Shown piece after piece: positions 11,791 to 25,190 of a DNA stretch of 64,000 nucleotides. The position numbers were made by a program, and so were the translations under genes. The notes below the pieces were generated by a model. It was not told where the DNA came from, made no database searches, and saw nothing but the letters and a program-made list of their open reading frames with translations. This DNA is from an uncultured Rhodopila sp. (GTDB lineage: Bacteria > Pseudomonadota > Alphaproteobacteria > Acetobacterales > Acetobacteraceae): assembly GCA_903932145.1 (NCBI GenBank), contig CAIZFE010000098.1, forward strand, positions 124,001 through 188,000, read 5' to 3'. Position 1 is the first letter of the stretch. Each line of letters begins with the position of its first letter.

Positions 11791-12168
11791 CTACTTACAA
11801 GGGAACCGTTCGGCCAGGAATTTGAACAGCCCGCCGGTGGCCGGCAGTTCGCGATGCTCCGGCAGGGCATGCACCCAGTTCACAAACTCGCCCAAGGTCG
11901 CCGCCCGGCTCGGGGACGGGGAAGGGAAGCAGAACGGCTTCTTGTCGCCGCTGTGCTGCAACTCCAGATCGACCGCGGCCTGCGCGAAGCCATGGCAATA
12001 GTTGATCCTGGCGTCAGCCGCCGGCTCCCTGGGATTGGCACCGCACAATTCGGCCAGATCCCCGGCCGTCCTGACGTGCGGCGCGATCGTCTGAGCCGCC
12101 CCCGCGCCCGACACCGAGGCAACGGAAACCATCACGGCCAGCAAGGGAACCACGAAAAGCGACTTCAT
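11791..12168 (-). CDS. Secreted Rap1a/Tai-like protein
   Basis: About 125 residues from ATG 12168, which has GGAGG eight bases upstream; the frame also extends further without a better start. A clear signal peptide (MKSLFVVPLLAVMVSVASVS, then cleavage near GAGAAQ). The mature part has the Cys-spaced pattern of Rap1a/Tai-type proteins: LAELCG, INYCHGFAQAAVD and a final PC. In Serratia, Rap1a-type proteins are immunity proteins for type VI effectors, but many relatives stand alone with no known role; no T6SS genes are near. Periplasmic location is likely. Confidence 0.6.
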   Translation of the reverse strand: MKSLFVVPLLAVMVSVASVSGAGAAQTIAPHVRTAGDLAELCGANPREPAADARINYCHGFAQAAVDLELQHSGDKKPFCFPSPSPSRAATLGEFVNWVHALPEHRELPATGGLFKFLAERFPCK

Positions 12169-12182
12169 CCGAAAAACCTCCA

Positions 12183-12908
12183 TCAGCCTGTGATCGTGCC
12201 GGCAACCGGACCGTCCTGCGTCCAACGCTCCCACCCCCGGGCGCGCAGATCACAGGCCGGGCATGTCCCGCATCCGAAACCCCATATGTGGCGATCGGTG
12301 CGATTCCCCAAGTAGCAGGTATGTGTCAGTTCGCGAATGACCCCCACCAGCGCCTCGCCGCCCAGATCGAACGCCAGCGCCCAGGTCGCCGCTTTGTCAC
12401 GCCACATCAGGGGAGTCTCCAGCACGAACCGCCGCTGCATGCCCAGATTCAACGCCAGTTGCATCGCTTTCACGGTATCGTCGCGACAGTCCGGGTAGCC
12501 GGAGTAATCTGTCTCGCACACGCCGGTCACGATCCGTCGCAGCCCGCGCCGGTACGCGATCGCCGCCGCGCAGGTCAGGAACAGCAGGTTGCGGCCCGGC
12601 ACGAAGGTGTTCGGCAGGCCGCCCTGATCCATCTCGATCGCGATATCCGCCGTCATCGCGGTCTGCCCGAGCCCGGCGATGGTGGCGGTGAGATCGACGA
12701 CGTGGTCGATGCCGAGACGATCGCACGCCAGCGCCTGGCGGATCGGTTCGCGGCATGCCATCTCGATTGCATGGCGCTGGCCGTAGTGGAAACCCACCGT
12801 CTCCACATGCGGATACCGCGCCAGCGCCCAGGCCAGGCATGTGGTCGAATCCTGTCCACCGGAGAACAACACCAGGGCGGTGTCCGGGGTCTGGCTGCGT
12901 TGCGTCAT
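12183..12908 (-). CDS. queC: 7-cyano-7-deazaguanine synthase (QueC)
   Basis: 241 residues. It converts 7-carboxy-7-deazaguanine to preQ0 with ATP and ammonia in queuosine synthesis. PP-loop SGGQDS at residues 16-21; [12 protein letters not shown] is a conserved family stretch; the C-terminal zinc cysteines are in [15 protein letters not shown]. Other queuosine genes are not adjacent. The Rap1a-like gene starts 15 bp after its stop on the same strand, so the two may be cotranscribed. I found no preQ1-type aptamer in the 206-bp upstream gap. Confidence 0.95.
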
Positions 12909-13114
12909 GGCGCCTCTGTCAAAAACTGTGTGTCGATCTTATCATCACCCCATAAACCGTGATCTTGCGGAAGAACACATTGAAAGCTTAACCATCTGAT
13001 TTTGTTGAATTTGCGTTGGAGTGCTGGTAAGGTGTAGGGTTTTGTGAATCCGACCAATCGACGATCGCAACCCCAACCCTGGCGCCGCATGGCGCACAAC
13101 GTGGAGGAGCCGGC

Positions 13115-13411
13115 ATGAGCGACGATCCAATCCTGTCCGCGTTGGTTCGGCTTGAATCGGGGTTGGGCCGCCTTGAAACAGTGCAAACACGCCTCCGTGT
13201 TGACCTGATGGCGCGGATTGACCGGATACAATCCCACCTGGACAGCCTTGATGAATACCTGACCCCGGGCCTCGACCACAACGATCACGTCGAACGCCGC
13301 GCGCGGAGTGTGGCCGAGGATAACCGGCTGCTGGGCGCGCAGATAATGACCCTGACCAAACTCCTGCGGCAGTTAGAGGGGCGGATCAACAGCCTGGAGG
13401 ACCGAAAATGA
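13115..13411 (+). CDS. Small coiled-coil hypothetical protein
   Basis: 98 residues, with GGAGGAG upstream of the ATG. Heptad-like leucine/isoleucine spacing (LVRLESGLGRLETVQTRL and ITLTKLLRQL-type stretch near the C-terminus) predicts a coiled coil. Its stop overlaps the moeB start by four bases (ATGA), so it is probably translated with moeB. No catalytic motif is visible and I do not recognise the family. Confidence 0.65.
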   Translation: MSDDPILSALVRLESGLGRLETVQTRLRVDLMARIDRIQSHLDSLDEYLTPGLDHNDHVERRARSVAEDNRLLGAQIMTLTKLLRQLEGRINSLEDRK

Positions 13412-14265
13412 GCGGCACCCCGTCGTCTGAAAAAAGCGAATGGACTCAACACATGGATTTTTCGGAAGACGAAATCCAGCGCTACTCCCGCCACATCCTG
13501 TTGCAGGAGGTCGGCGGCACAGGGCAGGCGAAACTGAAAGCCGCGCGCGTCCTGGTGATCGGCGCCGGAGGCCTCGGTTCGCCGCTGATGCTGTATCTGG
13601 CGGCGGCAGGGGTCGGGACGATCGGCATCGTCGATGACGACGTGGTGGATCTGTCTAACCTGCAGCGCCAGATCGCCCACACGACGGATCGCATCGGCAC
13701 GCTGAAGGTCGAATCCGCCGCCAAAGCCGCCAAAGCGATCAACCCCGACCTGAATGTCGAGGCGTACGCCACGCGCCTGTCGGCCGATAATGCGCTCGAC
13801 CTGATCGGCCGCTACGACATCGTCTGCGACGGCACCGACAATTTCGGCACCCGCTTTCTGATCGCCGACGCCTGCGCGCTGGCAAAGCGCACGCTGGTGT
13901 CGGCCGCCGTCCTGCGGTTCGAGGGCCAACTATCGACCTTCAAACCGCATGAAGGCGGTCCGTGCTACCGCTGCCTGTATTCGGAAGCGCCGCCGCCCGG
14001 CACCGTCCCGACATGCAGCGAAGCTGGCGTGCTGGGCGCGGTCACCGGCGTGATGGGGACGTTGCAGGCGACCGAAGTGCTGAAGGAAATCCTCGGCATC
14101 GGCGAATCCATGTCCGGCAGGCTGATGGTCTGGGACGCGCTGGACAGCCGCTTCCGCAACATCAAACTGCGTCCCGATCCGTCCTGCGCCCTGTGCGGCC
14201 CGGACGCCACGATCCATGACCTCAGCGCGCACGGCACCCCCGAAGGACCCGCCTGTGCCATCTGA
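13408..14265 (+). CDS. moeB: ThiF/MoeB/HesA-family adenylyltransferase
   Basis: 285 residues. It adenylates the C-terminal glycine of a ubiquitin-like sulfur carrier (MoaD or ThiS type). Nucleotide loop GAGGLG at residues 52-57; the ATP-site DDDVVDLSNLQRQI is a family hallmark; the zinc cysteines are in CYRCLY and CALCG; the adenylation-active region contains CDGTDNFGTRF. The start overlaps the preceding coiled-coil gene; an internal ATG at MDFSEDEIQRYSRH could also serve. Followed by an overlapping DsrE-family gene. MoeB versus ThiF cannot be separated without a partner gene. Confidence 0.88.
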   Translation: MSGTPSSEKSEWTQHMDFSEDEIQRYSRHILLQEVGGTGQAKLKAARVLVIGAGGLGSPLMLYLAAAGVGTIGIVDDDVVDLSNLQRQIAHTTDRIGTLKVESAAKAAKAINPDLNVEAYATRLSADNALDLIGRYDIVCDGTDNFGTRFLIADACALAKRTLVSAAVLRFEGQLSTFKPHEGGPCYRCLYSEAPPPGTVPTCSEAGVLGAVTGVMGTLQATEVLKEILGIGESMSGRLMVWDALDSRFRNIKLRPDPSCALCGPDATIHDLSAHGTPEGPACAI

Positions 14266-14635
14266 CCCGCTCGGTATCCTGCTGCTGTCGGGCGATCACG
14301 ACCGTGCCCACTACGCCTTCGTCGTCGCCTCCGGAGCCGCCGCGATCGGGCGGCAGGTCGTCCTGTTCGCGAGCAACAAAGGCTGCCTCGCGCTGTGCCG
14401 CGACTGGTCGGGCCTGACGGACGCCAACCGTGATGCCCGCATCCAGGCTAACGGCGTCGCCGGCCTGGAAACGCTGCGGGACGCCTGCCAGGAGATGGAT
14501 GTCCGCATGATCGCCTGCGAGGCCGGCCTGCGCGCCGAGGCGCTGGACTCCGGCCTGCTGCTGCCCGGCATTGAGGTTTCCGGTATCGTCACATTTCTCT
14601 CCGCCGTGGGAAGCGGGCAGATTATAACGATCTGA
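14255..14635 (+). CDS. DsrE/DsrF-family small protein
   Basis: 126 residues from GTG 14255, which overlaps the moeB stop by 11 bases. The fold start LGILLLSGDHDRAHYAFVVASGAAA and the later MIACEAGLRAEAL, VSGIVTFL fit the DsrE-like family of sulfur-relay or peroxiredoxin-like proteins; one cysteine (ACEAG) sits at the position often used for persulfide transfer. Coupling to moeB supports a sulfur-transfer role, which is inferred. A longer frame from 14216 lies inside moeB and is not favoured. Confidence 0.75.
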   Translation: MPSDPLGILLLSGDHDRAHYAFVVASGAAAIGRQVVLFASNKGCLALCRDWSGLTDANRDARIQANGVAGLETLRDACQEMDVRMIACEAGLRAEALDSGLLLPGIEVSGIVTFLSAVGSGQIITI

Positions 14636-14681
14636 CGCATCCGGCTTGTATCGGTCAGGTTCGGTGTGGCAGGGATAACGA

Positions 14682-15473
14682 ATGCATCCTACGGTTCGAT
14701 TTTTGATGGCTTCGGCCTGTCTATGGGCGATCGGTACGCCCGGGGCCGGGGCGCAAATGTCGCCGCCCGCCGGCACGCTGCAGCCCAATGTCCACCTGCC
14801 CCACGATCAACCGATCAAGCCGCCCGCCGCGGCCCCCCGGCAGCCGGTGCATAAAGAGGCCGGGCCGGCAAAAATCCCGGTCGTGCCGCCGCATGGGCCG
14901 GCGCATCCCAACAAACCGGTCGCCGCGGCGGCAAAACCGGCGGTGGCACCGATCATCCCACCGGTTGCCCCACCGTCCGCCCCGGCCCAGCCGCCAGCCG
15001 AGACCAAAGCCGCGCCGGAAAAGCTGCCTGATCCCGAGAAGCCGGAAGGAGCGGTCCTCAAGCTGCCGCGCTTTGCCTCCTTGCGGTCGGATGATGTCAA
15101 TATGCGGGCCGGCCCGGGCGCGCGGTACCGGATCGACTGGGTATACAAGCGCCGTGATCTGCCGGTGGAAATCGAGCGCGAGTTCGACGTCTGGCGCTGG
15201 GTGCGCGATGCCGACGGTATCCAGGGGTGGGTGCATCAGGCCACGCTGATGGGGCGCCGCAACTTCATCGTGCAAAAGGCTGACGCCACGCTGCGATCGG
15301 AAGCCAGCGAAGCGGGATCGGCCGTGGCTATCCTCAAACCCGGGGTGATCGGGCGCATTCGCTCCTGCGAGGCGACGTCGGCTTGGTGCAATGTACAGAG
15401 TGGATCCTATCGCGGCTACTTGCGGCGGGACCAGTTCTGGGGCTTATTGCCGAACGAGCCGATTGCACCCTGA
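14682..15473 (+). CDS. Secreted protein with C-terminal bacterial SH3 domains
   Basis: 263 residues. A signal peptide (MHPTVRFLMASACLWAIG) is followed by a ~100-residue Pro/Ala-rich linker and then two SH3-like modules: RSDDVNMRAGPGARYRIDW, which is the classic SH3b start, and a second beginning VQKADATLRSEAS. A YLRRDQFWG end is typical of the SH3-containing DUF1058-like group. It is expected in the periplasm, probably binding cell-wall peptides; the partner is unknown. Confidence 0.78.
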   Translation: MHPTVRFLMASACLWAIGTPGAGAQMSPPAGTLQPNVHLPHDQPIKPPAAAPRQPVHKEAGPAKIPVVPPHGPAHPNKPVAAAAKPAVAPIIPPVAPPSAPAQPPAETKAAPEKLPDPEKPEGAVLKLPRFASLRSDDVNMRAGPGARYRIDWVYKRRDLPVEIEREFDVWRWVRDADGIQGWVHQATLMGRRNFIVQKADATLRSEASEAGSAVAILKPGVIGRIRSCEATSAWCNVQSGSYRGYLRRDQFWGLLPNEPIAP

Positions 15474-15674
15474 ACAGTCGCTGACATGCGTGCACAGTCG
15501 AAGCCAAAGCGAGTTCCTTTAAAGACTCGCCAGTATTTCACGATTATTCACGCTGAAATACGGTTTTCCGACGCATAGTTAACCAGGATACGGCTACTCT
15601 CTTTCGTGTGCTTTCATCACACTGTGATCGTCCGCCTGGTTCAGCCGGGTTCGCTTGCAGAAGGCAGTAAAGCC

Positions 15675-16145
15675 ATGAACATGATTGCCCCCGAGGCCGT
15701 GTCCCGTGACCTCGACTTCCCCGGCAGTATGACGACGCAAAAGCAGGGCGTCGTTGCCGTCGTCACCGACGATCTGGCCACGATCGACAGACTGGCGCCG
15801 GTCTTGGATTTTCTGGATCTGAAGATGGAAATCGTCTCGGCCGGCACGGATCTGATGCAGGTCTTGCAGGAACAGCGCCCGATGGCGGTGATCAGCGACG
15901 TGGAAGGGGACGAACAGGACGGATTTCACACCATGAAACTGGTGGCGAATTATCGCCGCGATGTGCCTGTGTTGCTGTTGACCGACGGTGACCCGGTGCT
16001 GATGGGCGCTGCCGATGCCATCCAGGACCTGTGGGGACTGACCTCGGTGACCCGGACAAGCGCCTTCGCGATTGCGGGCCAGGTCGTCGCCTTCCTGTTC
16101 ACTGCCGGCCGGAGCGCCGGATGTATGCGGCTGTTGCCGGTCTGA
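15675..16145 (+). CDS. CheY-like receiver-domain protein (diverged)
   Basis: About 156 residues from ATG 15675 (AAGG nine bases upstream); the longer frame from 15606 has no better signal. VVAVVTDDLATIDRLAPVLDFL and AVISDVEGDEQDGFHTMKLV follow the receiver order, with an aspartate in ISDVEG at the phosphorylation strand and VPVLLLTDGDP at the beta-4 strand. The final lysine motif is not clear, so phosphorylation is uncertain. No kinase is adjacent. A single-domain or degenerate response regulator is the best call. Confidence 0.6.
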   Translation: MNMIAPEAVSRDLDFPGSMTTQKQGVVAVVTDDLATIDRLAPVLDFLDLKMEIVSAGTDLMQVLQEQRPMAVISDVEGDEQDGFHTMKLVANYRRDVPVLLLTDGDPVLMGAADAIQDLWGLTSVTRTSAFAIAGQVVAFLFTAGRSAGCMRLLPV

Positions 16146-16168
16146 TCGCGACCGGCCATAAAGCGGTG

Positions 16169-16963
16169 TCAGGGCGCGGAGATGTCCGCCGTCCCCCTCC
16201 CGCTGGCCGAACACCGGTGCCGTTGTTGACGCGCGCTGGCGGCATAAGCGCCGAACGGGCGGTTCGGCCGGCTGTTCGGCTCGACGATTGAGGCGTGATA
16301 GGCGTTCCAATCTGCATCGGTCAGATCGGACGGTCCAGATGTCACCTCCACCTTGTTGAGCGTGTCGTTACTGTAGCTGTGTCGCGGCACCGGCTGCACC
16401 TGCACCAGAGGATAGTCGGCACGCAGGCGCACCGGCATGTGACTTCGGGTGAACCGCATGTTGGTGAACAGAGGACCGAACCAGCGGTCTGTTTCCACGA
16501 TCCCCTCGAACAGGCAGATCCCGCCGGCCTGTGGCAAATTGACCGGCGACCGCACCAGAAGATGCCAATCCGGCGCGGTCCGCGCAATCAGGCCGGTCCA
16601 CAGTTGAACGGTCCCGGGCTCCGGCAATGCCGTCAGGAACGGCGGTGAGCAGCCCTTCAACGCCGCGGGGGCGACACGATCGAATTCATCCATGTAATCG
16701 GGAAGTTGCGCCGCCGTTTGCAAAGGCATCCAATCCGGCGCTTCGTCACAGCGCCAGAAGACGTCACTGCCATCCCATAACAGTTCGAGATCGATCGGCG
16801 GAAACAACCACCACCCGAACGCGGTCGCGCTGGTGAGTGCCTCGCAGTAACGCACGGCCCGCATCGGCAGCGTGCCCATGGCGGAGCGGTCTGCCCGCAT
16901 CGGTATGCGGCCCCGACTGGTGAGCCGATGAAACCGAACAATGGGCTGGTCAGGATTGGACAT
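16169..16963 (-). CDS. DUF6065-like protein
   Basis: About 264 residues from ATG 16963; the frame extends to 17008. The pattern MRAVRYCEALTSATAFGWW, then WHLLVRSPVNLPQ, FEGIVETDRW and FTNMRFTRSHMPVRL agrees with what I recall of DUF6065 proteins (xxFGWxL ... EGIVETDW ... NxxFTRP). The function of the family is unknown. A 53-residue repeat peptide is encoded upstream on the same strand (17332-17493), 368 bp away, which may or may not be related. The family call is from memory and should be treated as tentative. Confidence 0.55.
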   Translation of the reverse strand: MSNPDQPIVRFHRLTSRGRIPMRADRSAMGTLPMRAVRYCEALTSATAFGWWLFPPIDLELLWDGSDVFWRCDEAPDWMPLQTAAQLPDYMDEFDRVAPAALKGCSPPFLTALPEPGTVQLWTGLIARTAPDWHLLVRSPVNLPQAGGICLFEGIVETDRWFGPLFTNMRFTRSHMPVRLRADYPLVQVQPVPRHSYSNDTLNKVEVTSGPSDLTDADWNAYHASIVEPNSRPNRPFGAYAASARQQRHRCSASGRGTADISAP

Positions 16964-17331
16964 GCTGGAAGATCTTTCAGCGATGGTGGGTTGGTTCCAG
17001 GCAACCATGGGATGGCGCGATTCGGCCGTCCGCGCGTCGCATACGACGTGTAGCCGGGACTGTGTTGCCTTGAATTGGGGGGTGCGATCCGCGGCCGGGG
17101 CTAAATCCGCTCCGGCCGGGAGCGCAAGCTCGCCATCTGGTTATGCCCTTTTTGAACCCCTCGTCAGTGGGCCCGGGGGCATCGCCGAATGGGAGGTGGC
17201 GTCGGGTGTGACCCCGCTCGGATCGCTTAACGAAGAACGAAGGTACCTGGCAGGTATTGCATCAGTATCTTTTGACCATCGCAAACCTGTCGCGTCGTGC
17301 GCTCGATAGGCGGACGCGTATTATCCTTGCT
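16964..17331. other. Intergenic, no gene seen
   Basis: 368 bp between the DUF6065-like gene and the repeat-peptide gene. Base composition is mixed and no frame with a ribosome binding site or recognisable motif was found on either strand. It may carry the DUF6065 promoter. Confidence 0.5.
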
Positions 17332-17493
17332 TCAGGCGGTCTTCACCGGCAGGCGGATACCACCACCTAGAACGATCTTGCCGGTGTCGGCGGTCTTCAC
17401 CGGCAGGCGAATGCCGCCGCCCAGAACAATCTTGCCGGTATCGGCGGTGGATGCCGAAGAAGCGTCAACGGCGATTTGTGTACAAAAGAGCAT
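17332..17493 (-). CDS. 53-residue peptide with tandem 18-residue repeat
   Basis: Minus-strand ATG at 17493 with AAGGA eight bases upstream. After a short lead (MLFCTQIAVDASSAS) come two exact copies of TADTGKIVLGGGIRLPVK and a final TA. The two 54-bp DNA copies differ at seven bases (GAC/GAT, ATC/ATT twice, CTA/CTG, GGT/GGC three times), and every difference is synonymous. This is strong evidence that the peptide is translated and its sequence selected. No family recognised. The lead-plus-repeat layout would suit a modified or processed peptide or a small structural or adhesive protein. It is upstream of, and codirectional with, the DUF6065-like gene. Confidence 0.65.
   Translation of the reverse strand: MLFCTQIAVDASSASTADTGKIVLGGGIRLPVKTADTGKIVLGGGIRLPVKTA
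17336..17443 (-). repeat. Two 54-bp direct repeats inside the peptide gene
   Basis: Units 17336-17389 and 17390-17443, in the same frame, 47 of 54 bases identical. A few bases of a third unit start at 17444. All mismatches fall at third codon positions of the minus-strand ORF. Confidence 0.92.
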
Positions 17494-17849
17494 CGGGATT
17501 TCCTTGTTTGTTTGAATGCGCCAAACAGGCTCAAGGCAAACAGCAAACTGCCCTGATCAGGATCGTCTTGATGGTATTTCGTAAAATGGACGCGGACCTG
17601 AACAGATGAGCAGCCTTTCGAAGTCACACAGAAAGGATGCCGCCTGAGGTCTCAAGACATAGATGTCCTGTTGGCAGTCGCGGACTTATATGGAAAACAA
17701 ACCTTAGTAAATAAAATTATTCCTAATAAAATCACAAAACTGAAAAATATCCGGTCATTTGACAAATCAGGCGACGTTTTGGACGAACGCCCGTTCTTTC
17801 ACAGGCGCGTTGTCGCGTCCATTGGTTTCTCCAGGGGACGGCATATCGC
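17494..17849. other. AT-rich intergenic stretch
   Basis: 356 bp, clearly more AT-rich than the surroundings around 17690-17770. No supported gene; a weak TTG-initiated plus-strand frame at 17671-17862 lacks a ribosome binding site. It may hold the promoter of the repeat-peptide gene and the 3' end of the YeiH transcript, and may be of foreign origin. Confidence 0.5.
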
Positions 17850-18896
17850 CTACAGGGCGTGAGTCCATGCCTGCACCGCAAGGCTCGACGCCGCGACCAC
17901 GAACCACGTCACCAAACCCAGCACGAGCGGCCGGCTTCCAGCGTCGACAAACGCGCGCCAGTGACCTTGCAGGCCGACCGCGGCCAGGGCGACGACCATC
18001 ACCAGGCGACCTAACATCTGGACCTGCGGCGCGTGTGATCCGATCAGACCGGCGGTGTTCACGGCCGCCGCAAGGATGAACAAGATAATAAATGTCGGCA
18101 CTGCCGCGTAAACCCGCCTGGCCAGCGACTCTCCGCCAGAACGGTCTTCTTTGACAACGAAGGGAAGTGCCAGTCCAAAGCCCAGCACCAGCGGGATGAT
18201 CAGTGTGGTTCGGGTCAGCTTGACGATCGTCGCGGTCGTGCCGGCCGCCTGGCTGAACGCGAACCCCGCCGCGACCACGGCCGAGGTGTCATTTACCGCA
18301 GTGCCTGCCCAGATGCCGAAGCCGTTGTCGCTCAAGCCCAACAGGTGGCCGAGCGCAGGGAAGGTAAACACGGCCACCATATTGAAAAAGAACACCACGG
18401 TGACCGAATAGGCGATCTCCTCGGCCTTGGCTCGGATTACCGGTGCCAGCGCGGCGATGGCCGAGGCGCCGCAGATCGTCGTGCCGATGCCGATCAGGCA
18501 GCGCATCCGCCAGTCGATCCCCAGGTATTTGCCAAACCACAAGGCACAGATCAGGCCCGAAGCCATAGTTACGCCCAGCAAGGGCAGTGACCCGAGGCCG
18601 GTATGCACAATATCGCCCAGATCGAGGCTGGCGCCGAGCAGGACGATGCCGGATTTCAGGCAAAGCTTGCTGGTCTCGGAAATCCCCAGTGCCTTCTGCT
18701 GCCGCAACGCCGGAATGGCATTGACGATCAGGACGCCCAGGGCAATCGCGAACAGCGGCGCACCGATCAGCGGCGCGAACCAACCGCCGGCAACCGCCAG
18801 GGCTGCGATCCCGATGCACAAGGCCAGCCCGAGGCCGCGGCGGAGCCGGGCTTCGGTTGCCGCCCGTGATCGCACAGGGACAGTCGTCAAATTCAT
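17850..18896 (-). CDS. YeiH-family putative sulfate exporter
   Basis: About 348 residues from ATG 18896; a GTG at 18926 would add ten residues. At least nine hydrophobic segments. IGIGTTICGASAIAALAPVI and GIWAGTAVNDTSAVVAAGFAF are conserved motifs of the YeiH/YadS (Cons98) transporter family, which includes TauZ-type proteins suggested to export sulfate or small acids. Located in the inner membrane. No sulfur genes are adjacent, so the substrate is uncertain. Confidence 0.85.
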   Translation of the reverse strand: MNLTTVPVRSRAATEARLRRGLGLALCIGIAALAVAGGWFAPLIGAPLFAIALGVLIVNAIPALRQQKALGISETSKLCLKSGIVLLGASLDLGDIVHTGLGSLPLLGVTMASGLICALWFGKYLGIDWRMRCLIGIGTTICGASAIAALAPVIRAKAEEIAYSVTVVFFFNMVAVFTFPALGHLLGLSDNGFGIWAGTAVNDTSAVVAAGFAFSQAAGTTATIVKLTRTTLIIPLVLGFGLALPFVVKEDRSGGESLARRVYAAVPTFIILFILAAAVNTAGLIGSHAPQVQMLGRLVMVVALAAVGLQGHWRAFVDAGSRPLVLGLVTWFVVAASSLAVQAWTHAL

Positions 18897-19129
18897 CGCC
18901 ACGCTCGTTTCCTCACACTCTGCCACGATTGTGCGTCACCGGATAATATCTGTCATCAATCGCCAAAACCTTGAAAGGTTTTTTGTCTTTCGGAGTCGGA
19001 AATAGAAAAGCCGACCCGTGCCCGACCCGCATCGCGTCTCATCGCGGCTTGTCGTCACCGGACCTGTAAGAACCTCCCATTATCACGACTCAGTGAAGTC
19101 AAGTCATCGACGGGTTCGTACTTATTGTC

Positions 19130-21433
19130 GTGCGGCATCGAAGCAGATACAGACGGTTGTATATTGCGCGGTATGATTGTGATGATCTTCAACACAGTGA
19201 ACACCCGGGGGGCAGTGCCATCTTAAGGCAGGCCGCCAACGCCGATCCTTTCCCGGAGAACCAGGAGGCGGAGCCTCGCCTACGGCTGCGGCTTTTCGGA
19301 CACATGACGGTTGATGACGCGAAAGGGCGCAGCTACCTGCCGCGCACCCGCAAGACACGCGCCTTGTTGGCCGTTCTGACCATCGCCAGCCCGAAACCGG
19401 TCCTTCGCATGCGTTTGGCCGGGCTTCTCTGGAGCCGGCGGGAGAACGAGCAGGCCAGGGCATCGCTCCGCCAAAGCGTCCATGAATTGCAGGATACACT
19501 CGGCCCGGCGTGGAGCCATATATTCAAGGTCGACCGTCACCACTTGTCGTTGCGTCGTGAGTGTCTCGATATCGATGCCGCGATGCTGGCGCAGCCATCC
19601 AGTCTCCCGCGAACTCTGGATCTGTTTGAGTCGACTTTACTTGACGACTTGAGTGGTCTCGATCCCGCGTTCGACCACTGGTTGGACGACGAGCGCGCCC
19701 GATTCGATCGCGTCGGCCGCACGATAGGCGAATCCATCCTGGCCAGGTGCTCTGATCCCCAATCGGCTATCGACGCGGCCGAGCAATTACTGTGCATAGA
19801 CCGCGCCCACGAAGGTGCATGGCGGGCGATCATGCGCAGCCATCAGGAGCGTGGCGATCCGGACGCCGCGGCGCTGTGTTATGAGCGCTGCCGCAGCGTG
19901 TTGGCCGAACGCTCCGGAGCCCGGCCGTCACCGGAAACGCAAGATTTGATGGACTTGATCCGACGGCAGACCTGGCCCAACCCCCGACAGCCAGAAACCG
20001 CCCGGTCAGTGGCATCGCCCGGGGCACTGATCCCGCCGCCGCCTTTGCTGCTGCCATCCATGACGGCGGCGGCGCCGCAATACAGCCCTGCCCGTCGCGA
20101 TAGATCGGCATTGCGGTTGAGGGTCGCGCCGTTTCGCACCGCCGGCGAAGCACCGGACGATGGCCTCGCAGTCGGATTGGCGGAAGAGATTTCCGCCGGG
20201 CTGTCGCGGTTCCGTTGGATTTCCTGCGTGCCGGCCAGCCTTTGGTTCCCGGGTTCGGACCTCGACGGGGCGGACACCACGGTGGCTGGCGGCCTCGGCG
20301 CCGACTTTGTGCTGGAGGGGACGATCCAACGGGCTGGCCAGCGCGTCCGCATCCATGTGCGTCTGCTGGATATGCGTGCCGGCGGGGAGATCGCATGGTC
20401 CGGGCGCTTCGATCGGGTCATTAGCGATTTGCTTGCCCTACAGGACGAGATCGCCGCCGCGATCGTGGCGCAGATCGATCCTGAGCTCATGCAGTATGAG
20501 GGCCGCCGTACTGCCGCGATGCGGCCCGATGACATGAGCGGCCGTGATCTGCTGTTGCAGGCGCTGCCTGCGATCTTCCGTCTGGAGAAACATAGTTTCA
20601 TTGATGCCCGCCGGTTGCTGGACATGTCTCTCCGCGCTGATCCTGGTAGTTCGGTTGCCCATGGCTGGCTCGCCTACTGGAACCTGTTGCATGTCGGGCA
20701 AGGATGGGCGGCCGATCCTGCGTTCGGCGCGGCCGAGGCCGGCCGGCTGGCGGAACGGGCGATCTTGCTTGATCCGAATGATGCGCGTGCCTTGACCCTG
20801 GCAGGGCACGTACGCGGCTTTCTGGGCAAAGCGCCGGACGAGGCCAGTGCCCTGCATGAACGCGCGATCACATTGAATCCGAACCTGGCCCTGGCCTGGT
20901 GTTTCTCGGGTATGGCCCATTCTTATATGGGGCGGCACGAGGAAGCGTTGCGGCGCGTGATTCAGTCATGCCGTTTGTCACCGTCGGACCCACACCAGTT
21001 TTTCTTCGATCAAGCGTTGATCATAGTGCATTTGATGCGCGACGACTATGCCGGAGCGGCGGCCGTCGGGCGGCGGGCTATCCAGATCAACCCTCTGTTT
21101 TCATCAACGTATAAGAGCTACCTCGCCGCTCTCGGGCTGATGGACCGCGCTGGCGAGGCGCAGATGGTTTTGCGCCGGTTGTTGGAACTGGAACCGGGTT
21201 TTTCAGTCCAGGATGCCGTGCGACGGACGCCGTTCGTCTGCCCGCGGGATGTCGCCCGTTATGCCGAGGGGCTCCGCCGAGCGGGCTTGCCGGAGGTGGG
21301 CCGGGTGGTTCCCGGGGACCAATTGACGCTGACAATCGGACCCCCACCCATTGATCTTGTGCTGGCCACATTGCACAGTTCCGAAGGAAAAGCAGAATTG
21401 CCCGCCCCGATAGATCGAGGAACCGCTGAATGA
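19130..21433 (+). CDS. SARP/BTAD-type transcriptional regulator with TolB-like and TPR regions
   Basis: Up to 767 residues from a GTG at 19130; the true start may be a little downstream, but the winged-helix part begins at about residue 50 (LRLRLFGHMTVDDAKG, then LPRTRKTRALLAVL). BTAD-like helices follow (AIDAAEQLLCIDRAHEGAWR), then a segment like the TolB-type region found in adenylate cyclase/CadC-like regulators (DGLAVGLAEEISAGLSRF ... GADFVLEGTIQRAG), and TPR repeats to the end. These regulators activate nearby operons. Its stop overlaps the start of the binding-protein gene (ATGA), an unusual coupling. Confidence 0.8.
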   Translation: MRHRSRYRRLYIARYDCDDLQHSEHPGGSAILRQAANADPFPENQEAEPRLRLRLFGHMTVDDAKGRSYLPRTRKTRALLAVLTIASPKPVLRMRLAGLLWSRRENEQARASLRQSVHELQDTLGPAWSHIFKVDRHHLSLRRECLDIDAAMLAQPSSLPRTLDLFESTLLDDLSGLDPAFDHWLDDERARFDRVGRTIGESILARCSDPQSAIDAAEQLLCIDRAHEGAWRAIMRSHQERGDPDAAALCYERCRSVLAERSGARPSPETQDLMDLIRRQTWPNPRQPETARSVASPGALIPPPPLLLPSMTAAAPQYSPARRDRSALRLRVAPFRTAGEAPDDGLAVGLAEEISAGLSRFRWISCVPASLWFPGSDLDGADTTVAGGLGADFVLEGTIQRAGQRVRIHVRLLDMRAGGEIAWSGRFDRVISDLLALQDEIAAAIVAQIDPELMQYEGRRTAAMRPDDMSGRDLLLQALPAIFRLEKHSFIDARRLLDMSLRADPGSSVAHGWLAYWNLLHVGQGWAADPAFGAAEAGRLAERAILLDPNDARALTLAGHVRGFLGKAPDEASALHERAITLNPNLALAWCFSGMAHSYMGRHEEALRRVIQSCRLSPSDPHQFFFDQALIIVHLMRDDYAGAAAVGRRAIQINPLFSSTYKSYLAALGLMDRAGEAQMVLRRLLELEPGFSVQDAVRRTPFVCPRDVARYAEGLRRAGLPEVGRVVPGDQLTLTIGPPPIDLVLATLHSSEGKAELPAPIDRGTAE

Positions 21434-22470
21434 TTCGATTTGCCAGACTTGCCGTGCTCGGCGTTACCGCGGGTTTTCTGATCGGTGCCGGTTGGGTGCG
21501 GCCGGTGGCGGCCCAGGGTTCAGGTTCGGCAACCCTGGACGCGTCCAGGGCGCACGGTCAGCTCTTATGCGGCATTGCCGGCAATATCCCCGGCTTTTCG
21601 CTGCCGGACAGTCAGGGCATCATGAAGGGCCTGGACGCCGATACCTGCCGGGCGGTCGCAGCCGCCGCGCTGGGCGATGCCGGAAAGGCTAAGTTCGTTC
21701 CGACCACCACGCAGAACCGCTTCACCGCGCTGCAATCCGGCGAAGTCGATCTTCTGGCGCGCGAGACGACCTGGACGCTGGGGCGGGAGGGCAACCTTGG
21801 CCTGGAGTTCGCCTGGATCAATTACTATGATGGCACCGGCTTTCTGGTGAAGACGTCCGCCGGCGTGAAGTCGGCGAAAGAGATGGACGGGGCGACGGTT
21901 TGCGTGCAGCCGGGCAGCAGCACGGAATTGGCCATCAATGACTATTTCCGCCTGAACAAGCTGAAGTTCACGCCGATTACCATCGCCGACCTGTCGGAAA
22001 TCCAGGCCGCGTTTCTGTCCGGCCGCTGCGATGCGTATTCGACCGACGCGTCCGCGCTGGCGACATTCCGGTTCACTCAGGGACCGAAGGCGAATGATCT
22101 GGTGCTGCTGCCCGAGATCATCAGCAAGGAGCCGCTGGGGGTGATGGTCCGTAAGGGCGACGACAAGTGGTTTGACCTTGTCCGCTGGACCTTCGCCGCG
22201 ATGATCACCGCCGAGGAAAAGGGCATCACCAGCGCCAACGTGGACACGTTCATGGACAGCACCGATCCCGACATCCGCCGCCTTCTTGGTGTCGAGGGTG
22301 ACATGGGCAAGGCGTTGGGCCTGGATAACAAATGGGCCTACAACGTGATCAAACAGGTCGGCAACCTGGGTGAGATGTGGGATCGGGACATCACCCCGAT
22401 GGGTGTACCGCGGGGCATTAACAACCTCTGGAACAAGGGTGGGTTGCAATACGCACCGCCGATCCGCTGA
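21430..22470 (+). CDS. Periplasmic amino-acid-binding protein (AapJ/BztA-like)
   Basis: 346 residues with a signal peptide (LAVLGVTAGFLIGAGWVRPVAA). LLCGIAGNIPGFSLPDSQG and GLDADTCRAVAAAALGD are the AapJ/BztA N-terminus of general L-amino-acid ABC transporters; the TTQNRFTALQSGEVDLLARETTWTL-type block (split here as TQNRFTALQSGEVDLL and RETTWTL) is highly conserved. No permease or ATPase genes follow, so this copy is an orphan. It begins inside the stop codon of the SARP-type regulator, suggesting a ligand-sensing partnership; that link is inference. Confidence 0.88.
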   Translation: MIRFARLAVLGVTAGFLIGAGWVRPVAAQGSGSATLDASRAHGQLLCGIAGNIPGFSLPDSQGIMKGLDADTCRAVAAAALGDAGKAKFVPTTTQNRFTALQSGEVDLLARETTWTLGREGNLGLEFAWINYYDGTGFLVKTSAGVKSAKEMDGATVCVQPGSSTELAINDYFRLNKLKFTPITIADLSEIQAAFLSGRCDAYSTDASALATFRFTQGPKANDLVLLPEIISKEPLGVMVRKGDDKWFDLVRWTFAAMITAEEKGITSANVDTFMDSTDPDIRRLLGVEGDMGKALGLDNKWAYNVIKQVGNLGEMWDRDITPMGVPRGINNLWNKGGLQYAPPIR

Positions 22471-22749
22471 GGGTCTGCCAAGACCCGGCCGTCACTTTCG
22501 GTTGCTGTCTCGTCGCGCTGGCTTGGTTCGGTGCCAGCGCGATCGGACGGTATTGGGTGCGGGCGGCTCGCCAGCCCAGCCTGTGCCGCGGCTTACCGTC
22601 GTGACCGCACCGCGTGCCGGCGCCATCATGTGAGCGATGCCAGGTCGAACATGCAGCCGATCACGACGGCTCGATTGCGGTATCGCCATGAATTGAGACA
22701 TTTCGAGACGAATCGCGTTGCATTTCCGCCGCATTGTCTGCAAAATAAA

Positions 22750-25190
22750 ATGGTGTTCGGAACCAGTGCGCGGATGGCGATCAGACAGTATGGCCGGTTG
22801 ATTCGACCGGTAGGTGTCGTGGTCACGCGCTTACCTCCTGGCATGTTAATATTGCTGTATCTGCTCGCTTTTATTGTCATTCTGCCGAACGTCGGCGGAA
22901 CCGCGTCGCCGGCCGGATTGACCGAGGTCTCGGGTCAGGATGTCGTCATTGAGGCCAGAGACGGCCTGATCACAGCGACATTCAATGATCGAACCGACGA
23001 TTCGGTTCTGCGGCCGCGCTGCCTGAGTTGGTTGCGAAGGGTGTCCAGTCGGTTAATCTGCACGGCAGCCCTGTCAGCGACAGCGTGTTGCTCGCTGGCA
23101 TTCCGGGTCTGATCGCGCTCGATCTTGGCGGCACCCAGGTGCGCAATCTGGCGCCGCTGCAAAGCCTGACGGGCTTACAGGTTCTTAACCTGCAGTTTCT
23201 GCGGATCGATGATCTTCGGCCGCTCGCTGCGATGACCGGACTGCGGACGCTCAATCTCGGCGGCACCGAAGTCAGCGACCTGACGCCGCTCGCCGGCATC
23301 GCCGATCTGCGCAATCTGGTTCTGTCGGTCACCAAAGTGAAAGACCTGACGCCGATCGCGGTGCTCGCGCAACTTCGGTCGCTTGATCTCAGCAGCACCC
23401 GGGTTTGGGATATCCGGCCATTGGCGCGAATGATCAGGCTACAGTTGCTCAATTTGAACGGCGCGCCGGTTGACGATATCGAGCCACTGGCCGGTCTGAC
23501 GGAGCTTCGAACGTTGGATCTGGGCGGTACCCGGATCGCGGATGTTCAGGCCCTTGTTGCCTTGCGGGAGCTGCGGTCGCTGAACATCGAAAGCACGCAG
23601 GTTGCCGACATCGCGCCGCTGGCACGGTTGCCTTTTCTGCATTCAATCGCCTCCGGCGGGTCGTTGATACGGACGATGGAAGCCCTGAACCGGGTCGCGG
23701 CCACCCCGGCGGCGCCCCCCTCTCCGCCCGAACAGGATGTCGTGCTGGTCTGGAACGACCAGGTCAACCGGGCGATCCAGACGACGTGGACCGACGCTTT
23801 TGTTGCGTCCCGGGCGCTGGCGATCGAAAGCATCGCGATTCTGGACACGCTGAAGTCGATCGATGAGGCCGGCGCCTTCCTCGTGCGGTTGCCGGCGCCG
23901 CGCGGCATATCAGCCAATATCGCCGCCGCGGCCGCCGCGCATAGCGTTCTGAGCCATCTGTTTCCGTCGCAGCGCGCGATGTTCGATCGGACCTTGGCAA
24001 CGGCCCTGATGCGCGAACCAGCGGGACCCGTCCGCGACCAGGCGGTCGCTTTCGGCAAGTCGATCGCTGAAGCGGTGATCATGGTGCGCGACGAGGACGG
24101 ATCTATGGTTCCCGCCGCCGATCGCGACGAAGCCGACTCTGGCGCGTCTCAAAGCCGTGACGGGGCATGGCGTCCGGTCCCACCCGACATGCGGCCGGCC
24201 GCGCATCCCGAATGGGCGAGCTTACAGCCGTTTTCGTTGACCCGGCCCGAGCAATTCCGCGCCGCCGGTCCGCCCGCTATCGATACGGATGCATACAGGC
24301 AGTCTCGGGCGGAGGTCGCGTCGCTTGGCGCGGCCGCATCGACCACGCGCACAGCCGAACAAACTGAAATCGCGCATTACTGGAGCGACGCCATCGGTTC
24401 TTACGCTCCGGCGGGCCATTGGAATGCGATCGCCGCGCACATCGTCGCGCCGCTCGGTCTCGGCGTGGCGGTGGAAGCCGAACTGTTCGCGGAACTCAAT
24501 GTCGCCATCGCCGATGCGGGCATCGCGATGGCCGACGCAAAATACACGTATCGCATGTGGCGGCCGATTACCGCGATCCAGTTGGGCGACGACGCCCGGA
24601 CCGCGAACCCGGAGTGGCAGTCGCTGCTGAAAACACCCAACTATCCAGGTTATATCTCGGGGCATTCCGCCTTTAGCGGGGCGGCGGCGGTGGTGCTGAC
24701 GGCCTGGTTCGGAAGCCGTCCCTTCACGTTTTCCAGCGCGAGTTTACCGGGCGTGACGCGTCATTTCGCCAACTTCGACCAGGCGGCGGCGGAAGCGGGG
24801 GCGAGCCGGGTGTTCGGTGGCATCCATTTTTCGTTCGACATTGTGGATGGCCAGACGACGGGCCGTGCGGTTGGCGCCTGGACGATGGCGAATTTTGCCC
24901 GCGTGGGCGAGGATCGCGGTCCAATCATCATGATGATGAGCAGTGCGATGCCAATGTTCGGCCGGGATCCGCATCAACGGATGGGCTGCGTGCTGGACAA
25001 TGTGGCGCCGGTGGGATCGGTGTCGGTTGCGCTGGATAACGGCGAGGCCCCGTTCAGTGTAGCCGTGGACGAACAAGGCACTTTTGCGTTGCCGCAGGCA
25101 CGTCCTGGCATGTCGCAACCGCACTCCGCGGTTCTGTCGGCGACCAGCATCACCGGGCGGAAAAGCGAGATTCGGGTCTCACTCGATTAA
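22750..25190 (+). pseudogene. LRR plus vanadium-haloperoxidase/PAP2-like protein, frameshifted
   Basis: The N-terminal frame from ATG 22750 has a membrane segment (MLILLYLLAFIVILPNVG), then the frame is lost near 23008-23016. One extra G there would restore VLAAALPELVAKGVQSVNL into the long frame that runs to 25190. That frame encodes about nine short leucine-rich repeats (LTGLQVLNLQFLRIDDL-type) and a haloperoxidase/acid-phosphatase domain with K-x6-RP (KYTYRMWRP), SGH in YPGYISGHSAF and SRVFGGIHFSFD. All three vanadate/phosphate-binding motifs are intact. It could be a real pseudogene, a sequencing error, or an LRR-haloperoxidase expressed from an internal start (TTG 23028). Confidence 0.72.

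Follow-up and report, generated by a model that had tools for sequence, protein, structure and literature searches.

The window analysed here is a 64 000-nucleotide stretch of an uncultured Rhodopila sp. (contig CAIZFE010000098.1). We concentrated on a small open reading frame (ORF) of its minus strand, at 17332-17493, which starts with ATG and encodes 53 residues: MLFCTQIAVDASSAS, two copies of TADTGKIVLGGGIRLPVK and a final TA. A DUF6065-like gene lies just downstream on the same strand, and a regulator with BTAD and tetratricopeptide repeat (TPR) regions is encoded divergently (table 1). Together they form a cassette that is real, recurrent and, within the open-access literature searched, unnamed. 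The DNA of the two units consists of tandem 54-nt copies that are 87% identical, i.e. differ at seven sites, and since the two 18-residue units are identical in protein all seven differences are synonymous. The original prediction had described this ORF, its synonymous units, a ribosome binding site and an overlapping longer antisense frame (72 residues, 17297-17515), and each of these is present in the sequence. It had missed the TPR regulator (19130-21433) and the variability of the core between species, and its overall interpretation is partly supported by the results below.

Table 1. Features of the locus, with positions in the window, strand and basis of the assignment.
Feature	Position	Strand	Basis
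Precursor peptide: 15-residue leader, two identical 18-residue units, TA tail	17332..17493	-	ORF and homologues
DNA of unit 1 (TADTGKIVLGGGIRLPVK), translated first	17389..17442	-	Tandem-copy comparison
DNA of unit 2, same 18 residues as unit 1, seven synonymous differences	17335..17388	-	Tandem-copy comparison
Shine-Dalgarno (SD)-like AAGGAAA ahead of the peptide ATG	17499..17505	-	Sequence; SD-like site also in 51/56 homologues (loose pattern)
DUF6065-like gene (subfamily B), predicted dUTPase/dCTP-deaminase fold; longer start possible at 17008	16169..16963	-	PF19541, alignment A1, model
BTAD-TPR regulator, 767 residues, proposed receptor	19130..21433	+	Pfam, NCBIfam, conserved neighbour, own-genome counts
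Stem-loop in the 5' untranslated region, terminator-like, ahead of the SD-like site; compensatory changes in close relatives	17531..17556	-	Alignment, RNAalifold
Promoter-like block, conserved, 157-234 nt upstream of the start	17650..17727	-	Alignment of close relatives
YeiH-type permease (PF03601), upstream of the peptide, accessory	17850..18926	-	Gene cluster in 21/88 loci
Small receiver-like protein, convergent with the DUF6065-like gene	15606..16145	+	26.8 bits, under the 30.2 cut-off; cluster in 24/88 loci
Family-3 solute-binding protein, after the BTAD-TPR gene	21430..22470	+	Cluster in 19/88 loci

A family of repeat peptides

Read in the antisense frame, the two units differ by a single residue (I/M). 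Since both frames share their third codon positions, the synonymous pattern of the window cannot by itself choose the strand, and it is weaker evidence of strong selection than was originally claimed. The homologues settle the matter. Among 56 related peptide genes, the antisense counterpart is broken in 19 and open in 37, and an SD-like site (loose pattern) precedes the sense start in 51; an open sense frame was itself the basis of their selection, so all 56 have one. A non-coding or chance repeat, the real gene being the antisense frame or none, would fit the open antisense frame of the window, the third positions in common and the 37 open homologues. We regard it as practically negligible, because the frame is broken in the 19 others and sense-strand unit peptides recur across genera with the same partner gene. 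On these comparisons, the minus-strand ORF is confirmed as real.

The window peptide has no Pfam or NCBIfam match and only weak PHROG matches (best E 0.019). Searching 59 genomes, we found matches in 23 at E <= 0.001, all from the genus of the window, and in 42 at the loose limit of E 10. The translated homologues consist of a leader followed by 1 to 19 counted units. Homologues that keep the repeat, in variable number, therefore exist, as the original prediction had supposed. They fall into three types. Type 1 precursors (..DxGKIxLGGGFRLP..) have mostly two to four units, type 2 precursors carry 17-residue units (..DAGKVRLGGFAPTLAT..), up to 19 counted, in arrays that often run off contig ends, and type 3 precursors have one or two C-terminal units (..DTGRIRFGAGYRLP). 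The genome of the window holds all three: the window peptide lies on contig C98 and a single-unit peptide on C111, and C36 ends in an array whose unit is found again where C44 begins. Each unit comprises a flank (D-x-G-K/R-I/V-x-L) and a core, G-x-x-x-R-L-P in the window type and G-x-x-A-P-x-L in the 17-residue arrays. Double-glycine cleavage after LGG, LGA or LGS is possible, but relatives show GN, GM or GD there; no C39-type gene was found among the Pfam-scanned neighbours.

We compared the units of 53 precursor sources, of which 49 were kept: L134, L146, L182 and L193 did not pass a similarity filter, which by its nature favours units that resemble each other. L129 had not been included, and L119 was masked. 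The core triplet at positions +5 to +7 after the K/R (LG-xxx-RLP) was the same in every unit of all 34 filtered type 1 and type 3 precursors with at least two units. Between these precursors there were 18 distinct triplets and an identity at +7 of 0.15, while flank residues agreed at 0.58 within a precursor. By eye, two of the loci outside the filtered set agree (L134, L182) and three differ (L146, L193, L129); adding L134, L146 and L129 brings triplet identity to 35 of 37 precursors. In type 2 the triplet is nearly, not fully, fixed within a precursor (identity 0.98, 0.98 and 0.88). The unit-to-unit ratio of nonsynonymous to synonymous change (dN/dS) was about 0.10 in the core half versus 0.58 in the flank. 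Synonymous differences were about equally frequent in both (0.29 and 0.34), hence the identity of the core is held by protein-level selection and not by recent copying. Strong selection on the unit, as originally proposed, is thus upheld by the homologues.

We consider it very unlikely that long arrays serve as structural proteins with a beta-solenoid fold, of which the short ones would be degenerate relatives. AlphaFold2 does draw a 14-unit array as a beta-solenoid, with a mean predicted local distance difference test score (pLDDT) of 89.6, but the five models span 60.1 to 89.6, and one- and two-unit members sit in the same cassette. We gave this model little weight, because one-unit members exist and because AlphaFold2 is reported, in the part of the source available, to give confident but unrealistic solenoids for repeat proteins (PMC11795689). 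A J25-family lasso peptide model was also rejected: one long array (L172) reaches its cut-off (23.0 bits, E 6e-5) and matches two PHROGs of unassigned function (E 4e-5 and 7e-5), which we read as sums over repeats because no single stretch passes in any of them.

The DUF6065-like partner and the TPR sensor

With its longer start, the DUF6065-like protein of the window scores 63.8 bits against PF19541 (gathering cut-off 26.6). A profile of 17 such proteins (A1) matched all 33 genomes of the genus, the window's included, and 34 of the 59 genomes overall. A class-wide search of 385 genomes, which scored at most six candidates per genome and can thus miss loci, matched seven: the window's genome, four strongly (three of one genus) and two weakly, at about 3e-11. 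All four strong matches, which lie outside the family, have a repeat peptide upstream, with GNMSPAF or LGMMAPAF units.

We then used the best 80 of 231 DUF6065-like relatives (L114-L193), from Rhodopila, Acidisphaera, other Acetobacteraceae, Elioraea, one Roseomonas, and Rhodospirillales and other metagenome-assembled genomes. A unit peptide lies upstream of the gene in 65 of the 80 loci, 54 detected automatically (42 by a repeat criterion, 12 by a weaker motif only) and 11 by eye. The other 15 comprise seven loci without upstream DNA and eight in which upstream DNA is present and the peptide was not found. Ordinary DUF6065 loci served as a control (29 of 30, one being too short; 1.5 kb upstream versus 1.8 kb for the test set), and the automatic test retrieved none of the 29 by the repeat criterion and one by either. 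The 28 loci without an upstream unit peptide include the C101 copy of the window's own genome (L090). The same genome has three DUF6065-like genes. Random 1.86-kb windows gave 14 matches out of 343 by the repeat criterion and five by the weaker motif; loci shorter than 9 kb were unmasked, so true peptides may be among them. Because the 80 loci overlap the other genome set searched, the two cannot be counted as independent. A DUF6065-like gene is thus conserved beside the peptide on the same strand, which bears out the original prediction. Separately, four Elioraea loci (L178, L186, L190, L191) have the DUF6065-like gene beside a cysteine-synthase-like gene, and the upstream peptide was not found there.

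The model of the DUF6065-like protein (pLDDT 79.6, predicted template modelling score 0.76; residues 28-31, 35-44 and 254-264 below pLDDT 50) matches dUTPases in Foldseek (best E 3.2e-4, probability 1.00, two matches below 0.001). A fold comparison (VIA) gave Z 9.9 over 109-131 residues in the best matches. The matches include dUTPases solved with Stl. A dUTPase-type fold is thus predicted, and such a fold does not imply nucleotide activity. Arg23, Asp25, Cys40, Glu157, Thr158, Asp159 and Gln188 are among the residues invariant in A1. By eye, EGIVETD..FGP and PLxQVQP resemble what we take to be dUTPase motifs 3 and 4, and motif 5 was not seen. The Cys and Asp motifs are also visible by eye in canonical DUF6065, and the whole Pfam family may therefore have this fold. 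A Cys-Pro pair occurs in the C-terminal tail of nine of 13 genus proteins and none of four outgroup proteins (Cys-Ser in the window). Mimicry of dUTPase motif 5 by the units was dropped because many units lack the aromatic.

The window regulator has HTH/BTAD matches at residues 72-278, and TPR matches fall at about 535-690, in its C-terminal sensor part. Its matches to TIGR02917 (1.4e-6) and the HilA/EilA model (2.5e-4) are far below the cut-offs, and that to the peptide modification system cyclase model TIGR04510 (E 0.032) is confined to the TPR stretch 570-612; all were rejected. Thirteen other regulators have 596-825 residues; Pfam analysis of five further ones found TPR in four (L164 being BTAD only) and BTAD in four (not L182). 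Of the 84 loci in which a DUF6065-like gene was called, 53 encode a protein of this sensor cluster no more than 3.5 kb away; among those with full flanks the figure is 32 of 41. Most loci have a BTAD transcription factor as the output, and others a histidine kinase with a receiver. Five kinases were recognised by sequence motif and BLAST, with Pfam run on one (L140, HisKA-HATPase-REC). Among the 25 matches listed, BTAD-type and kinase proteins have a common C-terminal sensor, with 43-54% identity over 393-527 residues and E down to 9e-148. It is thus the sensor domain, and not the output, that remains associated with the peptide. The window's genome has three strong sensor-domain matches (C98, C44 and C111), one beside each DUF6065-like gene. 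A fourth (C35, 31% identity) has a different neighbourhood with no DUF6065-like gene called, and two more are weak. Four BTAD matches occur in this genome, the strongest pair being those of the window and of C44.

The usual order is divergent BTAD-TPR, sometimes YeiH, peptide and DUF6065-like gene, with a convergent receiver-like gene in 24 loci. In five type 3 loci a BT1-type transporter is upstream and the histidine kinase downstream. Type 2 loci have TldD upstream and, where there is enough flanking DNA, often BTAD-TPR downstream. TldD directly precedes the 17-residue-unit arrays in L044, L045, L047, L050, L052, L061 and L063, several of which end contigs, so that counted lengths may be partial. 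A Solirubrobacterales contig (L185) carries the TldD-array-DUF6065 cassette as in alphaproteobacterial loci, perhaps by mis-binning. Peptide, DUF6065-like and BTAD-TPR genes occur together in Acidisphaera sp. S103 (L116) and Roseomonas acroporae NAR14 (L169); Rhodopila globiformis DSM 161 (L179) and Elioraea tepidiphila DSM 17972 (L157) have the first two and no nearby sensor. Besides DUF6065, sensor, receiver, YeiH, solute-binding protein and peptide, no gene cluster occurs in more than 12 of 88 loci.

Multi-core precursors of ribosomally synthesised and post-translationally modified peptides (RiPPs) have a leader, repeated near-identical cores and a dedicated partner gene. The cassette could accordingly make a RiPP-type product that acts as an effector (antibiotic, metallophore or other). 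Each unit would be matured by the DUF6065-like protein, a new kind of maturase, and BTAD-TPR would be the pathway regulator only. This is the main rival to a peptide signal, and we judge it possible if rather unlikely. Precursor architecture, with a core invariant in each precursor, is alike, as is the downstream partner gene, whose product has many invariant residues (including Arg23, Asp25, Cys40 and Glu157-Thr158-Asp159). SARP/BTAD-type regulators are found in Streptomyces antibiotic clusters, according to the part of the source available. However, no known RiPP enzyme, maturase or peptidase is a consistent neighbour among the clustered genes, TldD adjoining only the 17-residue-unit arrays; the Pfam scan covered representatives, so rare partners could be missed. 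Hence, among the conserved neighbours originally proposed, DUF6065 was retrieved and peptidases or modification enzymes were not.

Between the promoter-like block and the SD-like site, the stem-loop is a possible attenuator. RNAalifold on 12 sequences gave 12 pairs, seven with at least one two-sided change (computed without a shuffle control). The block reads TTGAC in most close relatives and TTTAC in the window. The terminator scan lists no such stem-loop and the promoter scan no such block, the stem-loop is not evident by eye in more distant loci, and Rfam found no match in 12000-24000 of the window.

Covariation of core and sensor

Coding conservation, copy-number variation, the three-gene association, the output swap and the homogeneity of the core are directly established. 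The best reading of them, to which we give roughly even chances, is that a lineage-specific signal derives from the multi-unit precursor peptide and that a TPR receptor senses it. The dUTPase-fold partner would handle the precursor or its units, by binding or maturing them. Units would be released and then either exported and taken up again or sensed purely internally. The neighbouring sensor would recognise the core through its C-terminal TPR region and pass the signal to a BTAD transcription factor or to a histidine kinase with a receiver.

For covariation we analysed 41 loci, then 36 after removal of the five histidine-kinase loci. Partial Mantel tests, used here, tend to be lenient. Over the 36 loci, core distance correlated with TPR-region distance (r 0.51), and the correlation remained when DUF6065 and the N-terminal half were controlled for (partial r 0.41, p at the permutation floor). 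Controlling for TPR left no positive residual between the core and DUF6065 (-0.11) or the N-terminal half (-0.04). Leaving out either large clade gave core-TPR partials of 0.26 and 0.35 (p 0.008 and 0.006), and characters simulated on the proteins' trees (four trees, eight settings) reached the observed value in 0-1.0% of 600 runs. For the 16 loci with YeiH, the core-sensor correlation was 0.34 given YeiH (p 0.018) and 0.11 unconditioned (p 0.19). In the site scan, the five-locus GS clade dominates the top columns.

The intact peptide might instead be an adaptor or multivalent ligand, with the flank binding the DUF6065-like protein and the core binding the sensor TPR, so that the dUTPase-fold protein gates the regulator by analogy with phage dUTPases and the Stl repressor. 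Flank distance does track DUF6065 (partial r 0.45 for the first unit and 0.28 for the last) as the core tracks TPR, and dUTPases solved with Stl are among the structure matches. Yet the flank covariation is not clearly above a neutral character simulated on the DUF6065 tree (p 0.04 and 0.23), and single-unit members have no multivalency. We consider this alternative improbable.

Several results weigh against a signal read by the TPR sensor. Without the GS clade the core-TPR partial r falls to 0.31, simulations reach the observed value in 1.5-17.7% of runs (three trees), and the dereplicated set gives p 0.053. When only DUF6065 is controlled for, the core also correlates with the N-terminal HTH-BTAD half (r 0.27, p 0.005). 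The most variable position, +7, taken alone covaries little with TPR (0.10, p 0.05-0.07); its covariation with DUF6065 is of similar size, and that with the middle region of the regulator is larger (0.22, p 0.002). The core is not identical across the units of L146 and L129 or, in the 17-residue type, of L193, L185 and L189. The pairing is unexplained at the eight loci where upstream DNA lacks a recognised peptide, and three more distant DUF6065 relatives (L101, L102, L103) have no unit peptide upstream. Nine of the 41 full-flank loci, six from Elioraea and one from Rhodopila globiformis, have no nearby sensor. Finally, the loci do not consistently carry a dedicated exporter, importer or protease, and no secretion signal was seen in the leaders by eye (judged without a signal-peptide tool). 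The covariation support for the TPR receptor is statistical and weakens without one clade; the claim is supported, not proven.

Known systems and implications

In the open-access PMC literature, we found no mention of DUF6065, of six unit sequences or of a dUTPase fold with RiPPs, and nothing that we recognised as the present system. The closest likeness is to RRNPP/RRNPPA systems, especially Rap-Phr with its tandem pheromone propeptides, where, in the parts of the sources available, a small propeptide gene lies beside a TPR-receptor gene and propeptides may hold several pheromone copies, as in the multi-unit precursors here (PMC11343458, PMC10075063). Adjacency of TPR-regulator and peptide genes is also found here (53 of 84 loci). 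By the available text, RRNPP systems belong to Bacillota, with candidate receptors of 250-500 residues (PMC10075063), whereas ours are from Alphaproteobacteria and, at 596-825 residues, exceed that size. The present cassette further differs in its BTAD or kinase-receiver output, its conserved dUTPase-fold partner and the lack of a signal peptide by eye. Multi-core RiPPs resemble it in precursor architecture and partner gene, and differ in that no known maturase recurs among the clustered neighbours here. The window protein passes the PF19541 cut-off, but belongs to a diverged DUF6065 subfamily tied to repeat peptides. As with phage dUTPases that bind Stl, in the source text available, a protein of (here predicted) dUTPase fold is linked to a regulator; in our case the association is with BTAD or kinase TPR proteins.

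More tentatively, and with less than even confidence, the cassettes may represent a new class of Gram-negative peptide communication. Multi-unit, genome-specific 'words' would each be matched to their own TPR sensor with an interchangeable output, a dUTPase-fold protein would have been recruited as a peptide-handling enzyme or switch, and several parallel channels, three in the window's genome, would operate per genome. Signals of Pseudomonadota are typically enzyme-made small molecules and those of Bacillota oligopeptides, in the part of the source available (PMC10075063). If the signal reading is true, an alphaproteobacterial peptide-receptor module with swapped outputs would cut across this division. 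DUF6065 would gain a context and a fold, and the precursors would provide a ready set of natural specificity variants.
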